Source: an uncultured Prevotellaceae bacterium (GTDB taxonomy: Bacteria; Bacteroidota; Bacteroidia; Bacteroidales; Muribaculaceae). Taken from it: a DNA stretch of 64,000 bases. The stretch is taken from NCBI GenBank assembly GCA_900316835.1, contig ONEL01000004.1, forward strand, positions 1-64,000, in the 5' to 3' direction. Positions 36,404 through 43,874 of this stretch are shown here, piece by piece. Numbering within the stretch: position 1 is the stretch's first letter; each line of letters starts with the position of its first letter. The notes under the pieces are model-generated. The model worked only from the letters and a program-made list of their open reading frames with translations, did no database searches and had not been told where the DNA came from. A program made the translations under genes and the position numbers.

Positions 36404-36985
36404 TTATGCGTCAATCATGATGCCGCCTTGCTTGCCACAGATGTAGTTGATGGGATGGTCAATGCCCTGATGCAGCACGCCATTAAGGACCAATGGCTGG
36501 CCTGGCACGAAACCTTGGCACTTGAACGTATCGCCCACTGATAGCTTGGCATTATGAGAGTCCACCACCACATACTCGTTGCTCCCACGGTACTCAATTG
36601 TCACCACTCGCCCTGGATGCCACCGCAGGGTGAGGCGGGCTCCAGGTTGCAAGGTGTCGCTGTCGATATAGTGAGAGTCAAAGATTTGCGATGCGGCAGT
36701 ATTACTCATGTTACGGCAAAAGTCATCCCAGTCGCGGTGCCCAGCATAGCGCGCCAGCACGTTGAGCGTGAAGCGGCGGCTCGTGCGATAGCCGTCGATG
36801 TAGCCCCACAGACGCTTAAGGGTGTTGGTGGAGATATGTTCGCCAGTAGCGTCGGCGACAGCCTGTGCCAGCATGTCAAAATCGCTGGGCAACCGCATGG
36901 TGCGCCCCGCCACCTCTTCCACTTGCTTCTTGAGGGCATTAAGCACCTCTTCCACCTCGGCTACAATTATAGTTTCTTTTACCAT
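36404..36985 (-). CDS. Unknown protein with helical, HTH-like N-terminal half
   Basis: 193 residues. The N-terminal ~100 residues are helical and contain SDFDMLAQAVADAT followed by ISTNTLKRLWGY and FTLNVLARYAGHRDWDDFC, a pattern I associate with small Bacteroidales proteins of presumed DNA-binding type. The C-terminal half is a beta-barrel-like unit (about 115-190). No enzyme motif was seen. A - strand TAACTTTG box at 37047-37040 is a likely promoter. The role is unknown. Confidence 0.65.
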   Translation of the reverse strand: MVKETIIVAEVEEVLNALKKQVEEVAGRTMRLPSDFDMLAQAVADATGEHISTNTLKRLWGYIDGYRTSRRFTLNVLARYAGHRDWDDFCRNMSNTAASQIFDSHYIDSDTLQPGARLTLRWHPGRVVTIEYRGSNEYVVVDSHNAKLSVGDTFKCQGFVPGQPLVLNGVLHQGIDHPINYICGKQGGIMIDA

Positions 36986-38415: not shown

Positions 38416-39348
38416 ATGACACTAAAAGAATTAAAAGAGATAATTAAAGGTAAGCACATTGACCGCGTTGCCGGATTTTGCAACAGCTATGAGCAGATGT
38501 TTGACCGCTGCTGCATTGATGAGTCTAGAAGCGATTCAGTTGTGATTGACACATTCGAATTCGAGGATGAGCATGACCAACGCTTCATTCCTGTTTCAGA
38601 GGCAATGGCCAAATTGCTGGAAATGAGCGCCAAGCATGACGATGACCGTGTCATGATGACGGGCTTAGACAATAATGTTTCCAACGAAGTACTCTTTCGC
38701 AACGTGAGTTGCACCAAGCTCATACCATCGGCTGAAGGTAATGCTGGCTTGTGCCTGCTAGGTCGCGAGCCTTTGAGATTTATCGATGATGTTGATGACG
38801 ATGAATTTCTCGATTATGAACGTGTGTATCATGTAAAATTTATCATTGAAGACCCCAGGGCCCAGAATCTGAATGAGAAGTTCATGGATTTTATCTCTGC
38901 CAACTGCAATTGGCCTCCTTCTTGCGAGCGATCCAGCGATGATGCGATGTATTTCACCTATTACGATGATGCCACATTCTTGTCATTTGTCACCGATGAG
39001 GGCACTAGTGCCAATCTTATTGCTCTGATTGCGGGGGCTTTTGATGGTGCCTATTTCACCTGCACGCCACTAACACGTGATTCCGAGGTGGAGCGCTTGA
39101 GCAACGACCGTCATGGCAAGTGCTTTGGCCCTTGCCAGGCTGTGGTCTATCCGGCATATCGCCCCGATGATTATAATGTTCCACACTTGAGGGAGATTGC
39201 ATCCTCCATTTGCTACGCCAAGGAGTGCGCCAGCAAGGATGAGATGGAACAGTTTATTGCCAGCCACAACCCCGATGAGGCTGTGGGCGACCTGGTGCGC
39301 CGCGTCACAACACGCTACATCGACCCGCTAACCCTTATCCTTGAATAA
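38416..39348 (+). CDS. Unknown 310-residue cytoplasmic protein
   Basis: No recognised domain, signal peptide or membrane helix. It is very acidic in the middle (FIDDVDDDEFLDYE near residue 125) and has scattered cysteines. The start ATG follows the small membrane protein by 23 nt, so it belongs to the same transcript. Base composition is less AT-rich than the LRR gene and the later nuclease-like gene, closer to the chromosome average. I cannot name a function. Confidence 0.7.
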   Translation: MTLKELKEIIKGKHIDRVAGFCNSYEQMFDRCCIDESRSDSVVIDTFEFEDEHDQRFIPVSEAMAKLLEMSAKHDDDRVMMTGLDNNVSNEVLFRNVSCTKLIPSAEGNAGLCLLGREPLRFIDDVDDDEFLDYERVYHVKFIIEDPRAQNLNEKFMDFISANCNWPPSCERSSDDAMYFTYYDDATFLSFVTDEGTSANLIALIAGAFDGAYFTCTPLTRDSEVERLSNDRHGKCFGPCQAVVYPAYRPDDYNVPHLREIASSICYAKECASKDEMEQFIASHNPDEAVGDLVRRVTTRYIDPLTLILE

Positions 39349-40864: not shown

Positions 40865-42307
40865 ATGCAGGAAACTAACATTTATAACTCGTCGAGCTTT
40901 TTTGAGACCGAGGAGGGAGAGATTGACGCTCGGTTTACCGATTTCAGCGACCTGCCGTGCCAGCGGCCATGGCTGTGCTTGAAGCGCGTAAAACGTTTTG
41001 GGCAGTGGTGGATTGTCAAGGGCGTGAACCCACAATTTGAGCCGCGTGATAAGGCACAAGCACTGCTCGACCGCGAGTTTGAGCGCTGCATGACGCTGTG
41101 GCATCCGAGCATTGTGCGCATAATAGCTCAGCAGGAGGTGCCCACTATGCAGGGCCGCTGCATCATCGAGGAGTGGGTCGACGGCATCAGCTTCGACAAG
41201 TTTCTCGCTACCGAGCCATCGCTGCAAGTGCGTCAGGACATTGCCAGCCAACTGGTGGAGGCTGTGCGATACTATGTGAGTAAGGGCGTGACACATGGCA
41301 ATCTAAAGCCCAGTAATGTGCTTGTCACTCACAATGGCGCTCACGTCAAGCTCATCGATTTCGAGCCCGATGCATCTAGTGTTCAGAGCGACATTGCCGC
41401 TCTGGGCAAGTTACTGCGCATGCTCAACCTGCCCGGCAAGTTCAACAAGCTAATAAAACGCTGTGAAAAAGGCAAATACAGCTCTGCCGAGAAACTGCAA
41501 CAAGACTTTTCCGTAGCAAAAAAGAAAAAACGCTGGCGGTGGCTGTTGCCTGCGTTAGCGGCTGCGGTGGCTGTTGCCGCTGTGGTGGCAACATTCTCAT
41601 GGGGCAGCAACCAGCGTCAAGCCGACGAGAAAAAGCTGCCAGCTGGCTATGTTGTGGATAGCATCGCTCCGGCTGGCACTTCACAAGTTTACTCAATTGT
41701 GTCGAATGCCGATATTTATTGGCTACCATTTGATTCGATAACACCTGGTAATATTTCTGAAACCATCGCTGTAGATCTAGGATTGAGTGTGAAATGGAGC
41801 AAGATGAACATGGGTGCCGATCACCCATCGGTAAATTTTGTGGGAAGCTACTATGCTTGGGGCGACACCACCGACCTAAGAAAGTGGGGTGGAATTGACA
41901 AATATTGGCCTGAGAGCAAGCCAATGCCAAAGCAGTCGATAAGCGGCACCAGCATCGACTTTGCTCACTTGCGTTGGGGTGGTAAATGGCGCATACCCAC
42001 ACTTGATGAGTGGCAAGAACTGATTGACCGTTGCGACTGGAAATACCGCAACGCGGGCGACGGAGCGGCAGGATATGTGGTGACGGGCCCCAACGGCAAC
42101 AGCATCTTCCTGCCTTTTGCCGGCTTGAGCGTTGACGGCATCAATATGCTAAACGTGGGAAGATATGGGTACTACTGGACTGCAACGCCTGCAGGGAACG
42201 GCAAGCGCATGGCACATCATGTGCTTCTCGAAGAAGGAAGAATCCTCGCCGACCAGACCGAGACTCTCGACTGTTTCATGTCTATTAGACCGATCATTGA
42301 TAAGTGA
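40865..42307 (+). CDS. Membrane pseudokinase with FISUMP-like extracytoplasmic domain
   Basis: 480 residues. The N-terminal domain (about 30-210) follows the Ser/Thr-kinase fold: WWIVKGV carries the ATP-site Lys and CIIEEWVDG the hinge, but the catalytic loop reads HGNLKPSNV (about 143) instead of HRDLKPSN, and DFG is DFE (about 164). It is therefore probably inactive. A Lys/Arg-rich stretch and one membrane helix (about 223-246) follow. The outer part ends in a module (about 300-480; AVDLGLSVKWSKMNMGA, WGGKWRIPTLDEWQELI, GYYWTAT) of the Fibrobacter-major-paralogous type. It is followed 7 nt later by an active-looking paralogue. Confidence 0.82.
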   Translation: MQETNIYNSSSFFETEEGEIDARFTDFSDLPCQRPWLCLKRVKRFGQWWIVKGVNPQFEPRDKAQALLDREFERCMTLWHPSIVRIIAQQEVPTMQGRCIIEEWVDGISFDKFLATEPSLQVRQDIASQLVEAVRYYVSKGVTHGNLKPSNVLVTHNGAHVKLIDFEPDASSVQSDIAALGKLLRMLNLPGKFNKLIKRCEKGKYSSAEKLQQDFSVAKKKKRWRWLLPALAAAVAVAAVVATFSWGSNQRQADEKKLPAGYVVDSIAPAGTSQVYSIVSNADIYWLPFDSITPGNISETIAVDLGLSVKWSKMNMGADHPSVNFVGSYYAWGDTTDLRKWGGIDKYWPESKPMPKQSISGTSIDFAHLRWGGKWRIPTLDEWQELIDRCDWKYRNAGDGAAGYVVTGPNGNSIFLPFAGLSVDGINMLNVGRYGYYWTATPAGNGKRMAHHVLLEEGRILADQTETLDCFMSIRPIIDK

Positions 42308-42314
42308 CAACATT

Positions 42315-43874
42315 ATGAATCACGATTTCCACAACATCAAGATTCTTGAGCACCAGGGAACATTCAACCTGCTGGCGAGAGGTGAGCGCTATGGGCAGTT
42401 ATGGCTCCTGAAAGGGTTGAAGCCAGAGTTTGCCCAAAAGAAGCTTTATCGCGACTTGCTGCGCAAGGAATTTGATATCGCCATTCAGTTACATCATCCA
42501 AACATTGTGGGCATGGTGAGCATGGAGAGAATTGAGGCACTTGGCTCACTGTGCATAGTGGAGGAATGGATAGATGGCGAAACATTGCTTCAGTGGCTCA
42601 GCAGCAATCACACAGTGGAGGAAAAACTGAATGTTTTGCGACAATTGCTCACAGCTATCGCACATTGTCACAACCATGATGTGATTCATCGTGACCTCAA
42701 GCCATCTAACATCATGATAACACGCGAGGACAATCAGGTGAAAATCATCGATTTCGGGCTTAGCGACACCGACCGCTACTCGTCGCTCAAGGCTGCAGCT
42801 GGCACCATTAACTATGTGGCTCCCGAAGTTCTCGAAAAAGATGGCGAGACAACCGTCCAAGCCGATATATTCTCGCTGGGCATGATCATGAAAGACATGC
42901 ACTTGCCCAAGCGCTATAATGCTGTAATTGATAAGGCTGTGGCTACCCTCCGCAATGAGCGTTTTGGCAGCGTGGGGCAGCTGCAGGAGGCGATAGAAAT
43001 GAATGGTTATCGCAGCTGGCAGAAAAAGTGGCTGGCAGTAGCTGCCGGTGCCGCTTTGCTGCTTTGCTTGGCAGCGTTTTGGGGAGGATATAAACTAAAT
43101 ATCAGGCTGCCTCTAGGGCAGCAATCATCTACAAGTTATCAGGATGTTGATTATGGGCAACATAGTGCCGACAGTCTTGCGCTTGCCACCGACACTGCGC
43201 TCACCACAATAATTATTGCTGATAAGGGCCTGTCGCTGTACTATCCCAAGCCTGGCGTCGCAGTGGCGGTGTCGCCAATTTCCGAGAGCGACGCCGTGGA
43301 CCTTGGTCTCAGCGTATTGTGGGCACCATGCAACGTGGGTGCCGAGCGCACCATGGGACGGCTCATGCCAGGAGCATTCCTCAGGAACTTGGCTCATAAT
43401 CCATATCAAACATTGAATGATGAATCTGATTATTTTAGAGACTATTTCTATAATACAACGCTGAGTTTTGAGGGCACCATTCACGATGCAGCTCACATGT
43501 TGTGGAGAGGAAAATGGCGTTTACCCCTCAAGAGTGAATTTCAAGAGTTGATTGATAAGTGCAAGTGGGAATATGTGGAACCACCAGGCGACCTGCCAGG
43601 GTTTCTCATCATTGGCCCGAGTGGCAAGAGCATGTTCCTGCCTATGGGGGGCTTCAGATATGACACGCACTATTTCTCGGTGGGCACTAAAGGTTTTTAT
43701 TGGACAGCATCGCGTGCTAAAGCAGGAGAAGATCCTAATGACTGGGCGATTACTTTTGATAACTACATGATTAGTATAAACGTGTTTAGCAATCTCAACG
43801 CTTTCCTTGTGCGCCCGGTTCTTGACAAGAAACCACACAAAATCAATGAGTTTTACAACCATCTTCCAGAGTAA
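42315..43874 (+). CDS. Membrane Ser/Thr protein kinase with FISUMP-like extracytoplasmic domain
   Basis: 519 residues. The kinase domain (about 15-230) is intact: WLLKGL with the ATP-site Lys, CIVEEWIDGE hinge, HRDLKPSNIMI (about 125), IDFGLSD (about 146) and APEVLEKDGE as the APE motif. One membrane helix (about 239-258) leads to an outer domain (about 310-515; AVDLGLSVLWAPCNVGAE, WRGKWRLPLKSEFQELI, GFYWTAS) like that of the neighbour. It could sense an outside signal and phosphorylate the pseudokinase or other targets. The start at 42315 matches the paralogue; a longer open frame upstream overlaps the first gene. Confidence 0.85.
   Translation: MNHDFHNIKILEHQGTFNLLARGERYGQLWLLKGLKPEFAQKKLYRDLLRKEFDIAIQLHHPNIVGMVSMERIEALGSLCIVEEWIDGETLLQWLSSNHTVEEKLNVLRQLLTAIAHCHNHDVIHRDLKPSNIMITREDNQVKIIDFGLSDTDRYSSLKAAAGTINYVAPEVLEKDGETTVQADIFSLGMIMKDMHLPKRYNAVIDKAVATLRNERFGSVGQLQEAIEMNGYRSWQKKWLAVAAGAALLLCLAAFWGGYKLNIRLPLGQQSSTSYQDVDYGQHSADSLALATDTALTTIIIADKGLSLYYPKPGVAVAVSPISESDAVDLGLSVLWAPCNVGAERTMGRLMPGAFLRNLAHNPYQTLNDESDYFRDYFYNTTLSFEGTIHDAAHMLWRGKWRLPLKSEFQELIDKCKWEYVEPPGDLPGFLIIGPSGKSMFLPMGGFRYDTHYFSVGTKGFYWTASRAKAGEDPNDWAITFDNYMISINVFSNLNAFLVRPVLDKKPHKINEFYNHLPE

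Follow-up and report, generated by a model that had tools for sequence, protein, structure and literature searches.

Bacterial pseudokinases are already known, and one of them, MviN (Rv3910, ActPs3) of Mycobacterium tuberculosis, acts together with the active kinase PknB (PMC12599244). MviN is membrane-anchored, and its activation loop is deleted. EssB/YukC, from the type VII secretion system, is another membrane pseudokinase; its activation loop is reduced and its role non-catalytic (PMC12599244). For most bacterial pseudokinases no function is known, and a 2025 review of their families does not mention Bacteroidetes (PMC12599244). Kinases of the PknB/Stk1 type, with PASTA domains, combine a cytoplasmic kinase, one transmembrane helix and an extracytoplasmic sensor. 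A dead kinase-fold partner that works with a closely related live one is found in HER3/HER2, where both are receptors, and in JAK JH2/JH1.

In the window, which is the whole stretch of 64,000 nucleotides analysed here, two genes on the + strand encode a receptor pseudokinase (PK; 40865..42307, 480 aa) and a receptor kinase (AK; 42315..43874, 519 aa), with 7 nt between the PK stop and the AK ATG. Each protein has a kinase domain, a single membrane helix and an outer C-lectin-like domain, preceded in PK by an N-terminal tail. The initial annotation had described two neighbouring genes of the same architecture, and this is borne out: PK and AK are full-length paralogues, with 28% identity across nearly their full length (BLASTP, E=9e-64). 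Both belong to the protein kinase superfamily, with Pfam Pkinase matches above the curated cut-off (PK E=9.4e-13, AK E=6.6e-38), and their AlphaFold models are confident across the folded parts (mean pLDDT 85.6 for PK and 80.3 for AK). The membrane helix of PK (41543..41602, + strand) comes just after the motif KKKKRWRW. By the positive-inside rule, the kinase part would be cytoplasmic and the C-terminus outside. A role of the pair in anti-phage defence was rejected, as the PADLOC matches of PK and AK are restricted to the generic kinase domain.

The lesions of PK had been recorded as HGN in place of HRD and a lost glycine in DFG. Both are present, the catalytic Asp being replaced by Asn (41294..41302, + strand; H144-G145-N146) and DFG by DFE (41357..41365, + strand; D165-F166-E167). 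What had been overlooked is a deletion immediately behind DFE, which removes the activation segment through APE; the Pfam Pkinase match to PK also stops at DFE. Retained are K52, E71, N151 and D165. Under the sequence definition of a pseudokinase, at least one loss among the VAIK Lys, the HRD Asp and the DFG Asp, PK is one. Its model shows a kinase fold without the activation loop, with a pLDDT of about 86–97 across the domain. AK had rightly been called intact: it has K33, E52, H125-R126-D127 (42687..42695, + strand), N132, D146-F147-G148 (42750..42758, + strand) and APE, which together with one transmembrane helix make it an intact receptor Ser/Thr kinase. Judged by these motifs, PK would be catalytically dead, and AK the sole subunit able to phosphorylate.

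A Foldseek search of the kinase part of PK against the PDB retrieved PknB and the MviN/Rv3910 pseudokinase domain (3otv, 3uqc), and among the best 50 structure matches of PK, MviN was the only pseudokinase. The best 50 matches of the AK model to viral models were essentially protein kinases. Unlike PK, the MviN pseudokinase domain belongs to a larger actinobacterial membrane protein for peptidoglycan synthesis, and is not a paralogue beside its kinase. Furthermore, it has no ATP-site motifs, whereas PK proteins of the window type (PK1) retain the four residues named above and have a lectin-like outer domain. The MviN/ActPs3 family is defined by the degradation of all catalytic motifs together with the loop deletion (PMC12599244); PK shares the loop deletion, and not the whole set. 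EssB/YukC also differs from PK, being part of a secretion machine, without an active-kinase sister gene and from another phylum. The PknB/Stk1-type kinases gave the top structural matches, and also the top NCBIfam match for the kinase part, far below the cut-off. In contrast to them, no PASTA domains were found in PK and AK, which have an Lcl_C/FISUMP-like outer domain and belong to a kinase family linked to a small gene, f1. HER3/HER2 and JAK JH2/JH1 are eukaryotic and share no common history of pairing with PK/AK, in which the partners are two adjacent genes and the dead one holds a tail lost by the live one.

The initial annotation considered such a pair to be rare in Bacteroidota and seemingly undescribed, and no description was found in the literature searched. 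In the open-licence literature, where silence is weak evidence of absence, nothing was found on FISUMP kinases, on a Bacteroidota pseudokinase pair or on such a bacterial receptor pair. We also found no described target for Bacteroidales kinases of the f1-linked family.

The outer domains are located at 41750..42304 in PK and at 43290..43829 in AK (both + strand). Their assignment to the Fibrobacter-paralogous type stands as a resemblance to Lcl_C and Fib_succ_major, and not as a membership. The PK domain scores 22.3 and 21.6 bits against Pfam FISUMP (Fib_succ_major) and Lcl_C, below the curated cut-offs of 33.9 and 34.9, and an Lcl_C match at E<=0.01 was obtained for nine of the 12 members. 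On these profile scores, the outer domains of PK and AK are related to Lcl_C/Fib_succ_major, without being members by the Pfam cut-off rule. A profile search of the outer domain against the PDB gave no match. Fib_succ_major and DUF1566 (Lcl_C) both occur in targets of diversity-generating retroelements (PMC4159848). Diversification of the PK and AK outer domains by such an element was rejected: a target is expected to have a cognate reverse transcriptase in its genome, and the 98%-complete genome has no RVT_1 match.

The window comes from a Bacteroidales genome, and the pair was surveyed in 101 genomes of its rumen-associated genus. The nearest named records to the window are metagenome assemblies from the rumen or other ruminant foregut, several of them labelled Muribaculaceae. 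Three kinds of pair are present, patchily, in about 17 of the 101 genomes. The PK1 type was found in nine genomes, with a PK 62–100% identical to that of the window. HGN, which is fixed in the PK1 clade, DFE and the deleted activation segment are common to all eight complete PK1 genes; the ninth copy (G093) runs off its contig. In the PK2 type (a deeper clade of five genomes, 33–38% identity to the window PK), the first gene is more degraded, with HGH, HCN or HGN, and with the Lys and the DFG, including its Asp, replaced in addition to the PK1 losses; an intact AK always adjoins it. The PK1 proteins could still bind ATP. Since the PK2 proteins lack the required residues, nucleotide binding is unlikely to be the conserved function of PK. 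The third type consists of two kinases, K1 and K2. Its first kinase is intact in G089 (HCD, DFG, APE), G090 is alike except for an in-frame stop after the kinase part of the first gene, and in G087 a contig end cuts the first gene.

Searching other genomes for the gene pair, as the initial annotation had proposed, revealed a strict co-occurrence: each of the 16 AK/K2 genes is immediately preceded by a PK/K1 gene. Full-length pairs of kinase, transmembrane helix and outer domain were observed in this genus alone, in a sample of 397 genomes of the family from which the best three candidates per genome were scored. G076 has a single, unpaired gene of the same architecture as the pair members. In G034, a truncated PK2 gene (locus L041, 9749-10768) was detected; the locus lacks its outer domain as well as AK and f1.

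The mechanical open reading frame of AK begins at 42165; 42315 is the likely start, because most relatives have an in-frame stop just 5' of the kinase domain. While the window has ATG here, TTG or CTG is found at the equivalent position in L037, L058, L062, L057, L059, L060 and L038. These start codons in the other PK1-clade relatives suggest a weak translation of AK relative to PK.

The kinase-domain tree groups PK with K1 in one clade (100/98) and PK1 with PK2 in another (97/94), which fits a single loss of catalysis inside an existing pair. Grouping AK with K2 (p-AU 0.18), or all paired kinases together (p-AU 0.24), was not rejected in tree tests. Relatives in which both kinases are intact, taken beforehand as a sign of recent decay, do exist, namely G089 and, with its in-frame stop, G090. 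They are placed outside the pseudokinase clade, though, and look ancestral. Because these two deeper relatives retain the pair with an intact first kinase, the pair is older than the loss of catalysis, which apparently happened once. The simplest reading of the tree and the motifs would be one duplication with both copies live, after which the first gene lost catalysis and activation segment once, and then the further loss in PK2. The dN/dS values (NG86) are mostly 0.15–0.25 for the kinase part of PK, in pairs with unsaturated dS, and about 0.10–0.16 for AK, which indicates that PK is maintained under somewhat more relaxed selection than AK. Recent decay of PK was rejected on these values and on the lesions common to its relatives.

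One PK1 locus (L057 in G111) is a mosaic. Its upstream region and the kinase part of PK are 97–100% like G001. The AK kinase part, along with most of the outer part of PK, resembles the window at 92–99%, and the AK outer part is near neither. By this pattern of identities, G111 is a recombinant from lineages that exchange segments, and PK and AK halves can at least be swapped within the clade.

The distribution of the N-terminal tail, which the initial annotation had overlooked, separates the two members of the pair. Such tails, of 15–40 residues, Ser-rich, acidic and often with an S-G-F/Y/I core, are found in nearly all other kinases of the family, the unpaired ones included, as well as in PK and K1, and in no AK or K2, which begin a few residues ahead of the first strand. 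The tail of the window PK (MQETNIYNSSSFFETEEGEIDARF; 40865..40936, + strand) is Ser/Tyr-rich and acidic, and mostly disordered in the model. As PK retains the tail and AK is without it, catalysis and tail are located on separate chains in each PK/AK pair. The tail may serve as a docking or phosphoacceptor element. Being short and disordered, it could also be conserved for a cause unrelated to phosphorylation. Counts were also made with a stricter version of the tail motif, S-[GSDE]-hydrophobic; since such a regular expression also matches by chance, the presence or absence of a tail is the safer statement.

The f1 gene of the window (36404..36985, - strand, 193 aa), likewise overlooked by the initial annotation, lies about 4 kb (3.9 kb) upstream of the pair, on the opposite strand. 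It encodes a helical N-terminal region with the motif TLKRLWGY, which by eye has a helix-turn-helix look, and a probable beta C-terminal region. Searches of Pfam, NCBIfam and the PDB gave no convincing family for f1, the Pfam and PDB matches being at chance level only. At loci picked by the kinase alone, f1 was near 32 of the 34 unpaired kinases, and the two loci without it have a flank of only about 1.5 kb. It is likewise present in all 13 PK1/PK2 loci having enough flank, and beside the kinase gene of G076; in PK2 and in G030 it is convergent with and adjacent to the kinase genes. In other Bacteroidales families, a kinase of the family is located within 1.5 kb at 16 of 22 full-length f1 loci, over 14 families. 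As none of the ten genomes searched has more than six copies of f1, chance is not a credible explanation for this linkage. Kinase and f1 together look like an undescribed, order-wide Bacteroidales kinase–partner module. No f1 was found near the three K1/K2 pairs, or anywhere in the G089 genome, therefore f1 is not required for every form of the pair.

Taken together, PK and AK may be an obligate heteromeric membrane receptor in which AK phosphorylates, PK supplies the tail and a second sensor, and f1 is the likeliest client, a reading to which we give an about even chance of being right. Since selection kept the dead copy in many species, PK is probably an obligatory partner of the live AK. 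Both subunits would span the inner membrane once, with their related lectin-like domains facing the periplasm. AK would phosphorylate, and the dead PK would contribute its second sensor domain and the acidic, Ser/Tyr-rich tail, which in unpaired kinases is part of the same chain and is gone from AK. When a ligand binds, or the receptors pair, the AK active site could then come to the PK tail, or to a client recruited by the tail, most likely the small f1 protein, whose gene accompanies kinases of the family. While the architecture, the motif loss, its conservation, the co-occurrence, the complementary loss of catalysis and tail and the f1 linkage are shown by the data, we infer complex formation, on which co-occurrence and complementary losses bear indirectly, the direction of regulation, the function of the tail, f1 as the client and the ligand. 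Weighing against this reading are the recombinant locus of G111, the absence of f1 near the K1/K2 pairs and the shortness and disorder of the tail. More tentatively, and as a possibility to which we would give clearly less weight, the pair might be a split receptor kinase, in which one ancestral kinase function is shared out between two paralogues, one keeping catalysis and the other, a dedicated pseudokinase, bearing a tail that accepts the client or the phosphate, and as such a specialised branch of a seemingly undescribed, order-wide Bacteroidales module of Ser/Thr kinase and f1.

Instead of its tail, the kinase fold of PK could be what matters, if PK activates AK allosterically or acts as a scaffold through N-lobe or C-lobe contacts, like HER3/HER2 or ROP5/ROP18, with the tail being incidental. 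The purifying selection on the kinase-homology domain and its confident fold agree with this, as do the need of ROP18 activity for ROP5 (PMC3493473) and the back-to-back dimerisation of the MviN pseudokinase domain (PMC12599244). We consider it rather unlikely nevertheless, as it leaves unexplained why AK lost the tail and PK retained it in every pair. Regulation of the active partner by the inactive one, as put forward in the initial annotation, is thus a candidate role, and a scaffold or substrate role of PK is just as conceivable as an allosteric one. The phosphorylated tail of MviN offers a different model, in which AK phosphorylates PK and a phospho-binding protein is recruited to this docking platform. 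In MviN, PknB phosphorylates the tail, which recruits the FHA domain of FhaA (PMC12599244), and the position of MviN among the structure matches and the composition of the PK tail point the same way. However, the phosphorylated tail of MviN is C-terminal to the pseudokinase domain, and the surroundings of the pair yielded no phospho-binding gene, so that we regard this model as doubtful.

Similarly doubtful is that PK is a dominant-negative brake, which by occupying the ligand or AK would hold AK inactive until the two are parted by a signal. As PK is the first gene of the pair, and the AK start reads TTG or CTG in every other PK1-clade relative, PK may be made in excess, but in the window AK starts with ATG. 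Moreover, output would survive the loss of a pure brake, yet no AK was found that lacks a PK/K1 gene upstream. Finally, PK could be a functionless, decaying duplicate, as the truncated G034 copy with its lost AK neighbour and the patchy distribution of the pair might suggest. The low dN/dS, the same lesions across 62–82% identity, the long open frames in all complete copies and the strict pairing with AK contradict this, and make it highly improbable. The receptor reading, with PK as the tail-bearing partner of AK, remains the one we prefer.

The locus provides a natural evolutionary series, from an unpaired kinase with a tail to a pair of two live kinases, then a pair in which one kinase is dead, and finally one in which it is more degraded, therefore the role of a pseudokinase once catalysis is gone becomes directly testable. 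With the linked f1, an entire Bacteroidales kinase family also gains a specific candidate client.

A hypothetical protein of 310 aa (window 38416-39348, + strand), without a Pfam or NCBIfam match, adjoins the pair in members of the PK1 clade (G111, G095, G109, G001) as well as of the PK2 clade (G015, G065). The N-terminal region of f1 is fused to large P-loop-like proteins, NACHT/STAND-like by eye, in other Bacteroidales families (L146, L148). The window genome has an orphan f1 on another contig (C19; locus L113, 5904-6587), with no kinase of the family within the 12 kb examined. In G091 (locus L082, 5289-8979), the whole module is tandemly duplicated, two motif-intact kinases alternating with two f1 genes.
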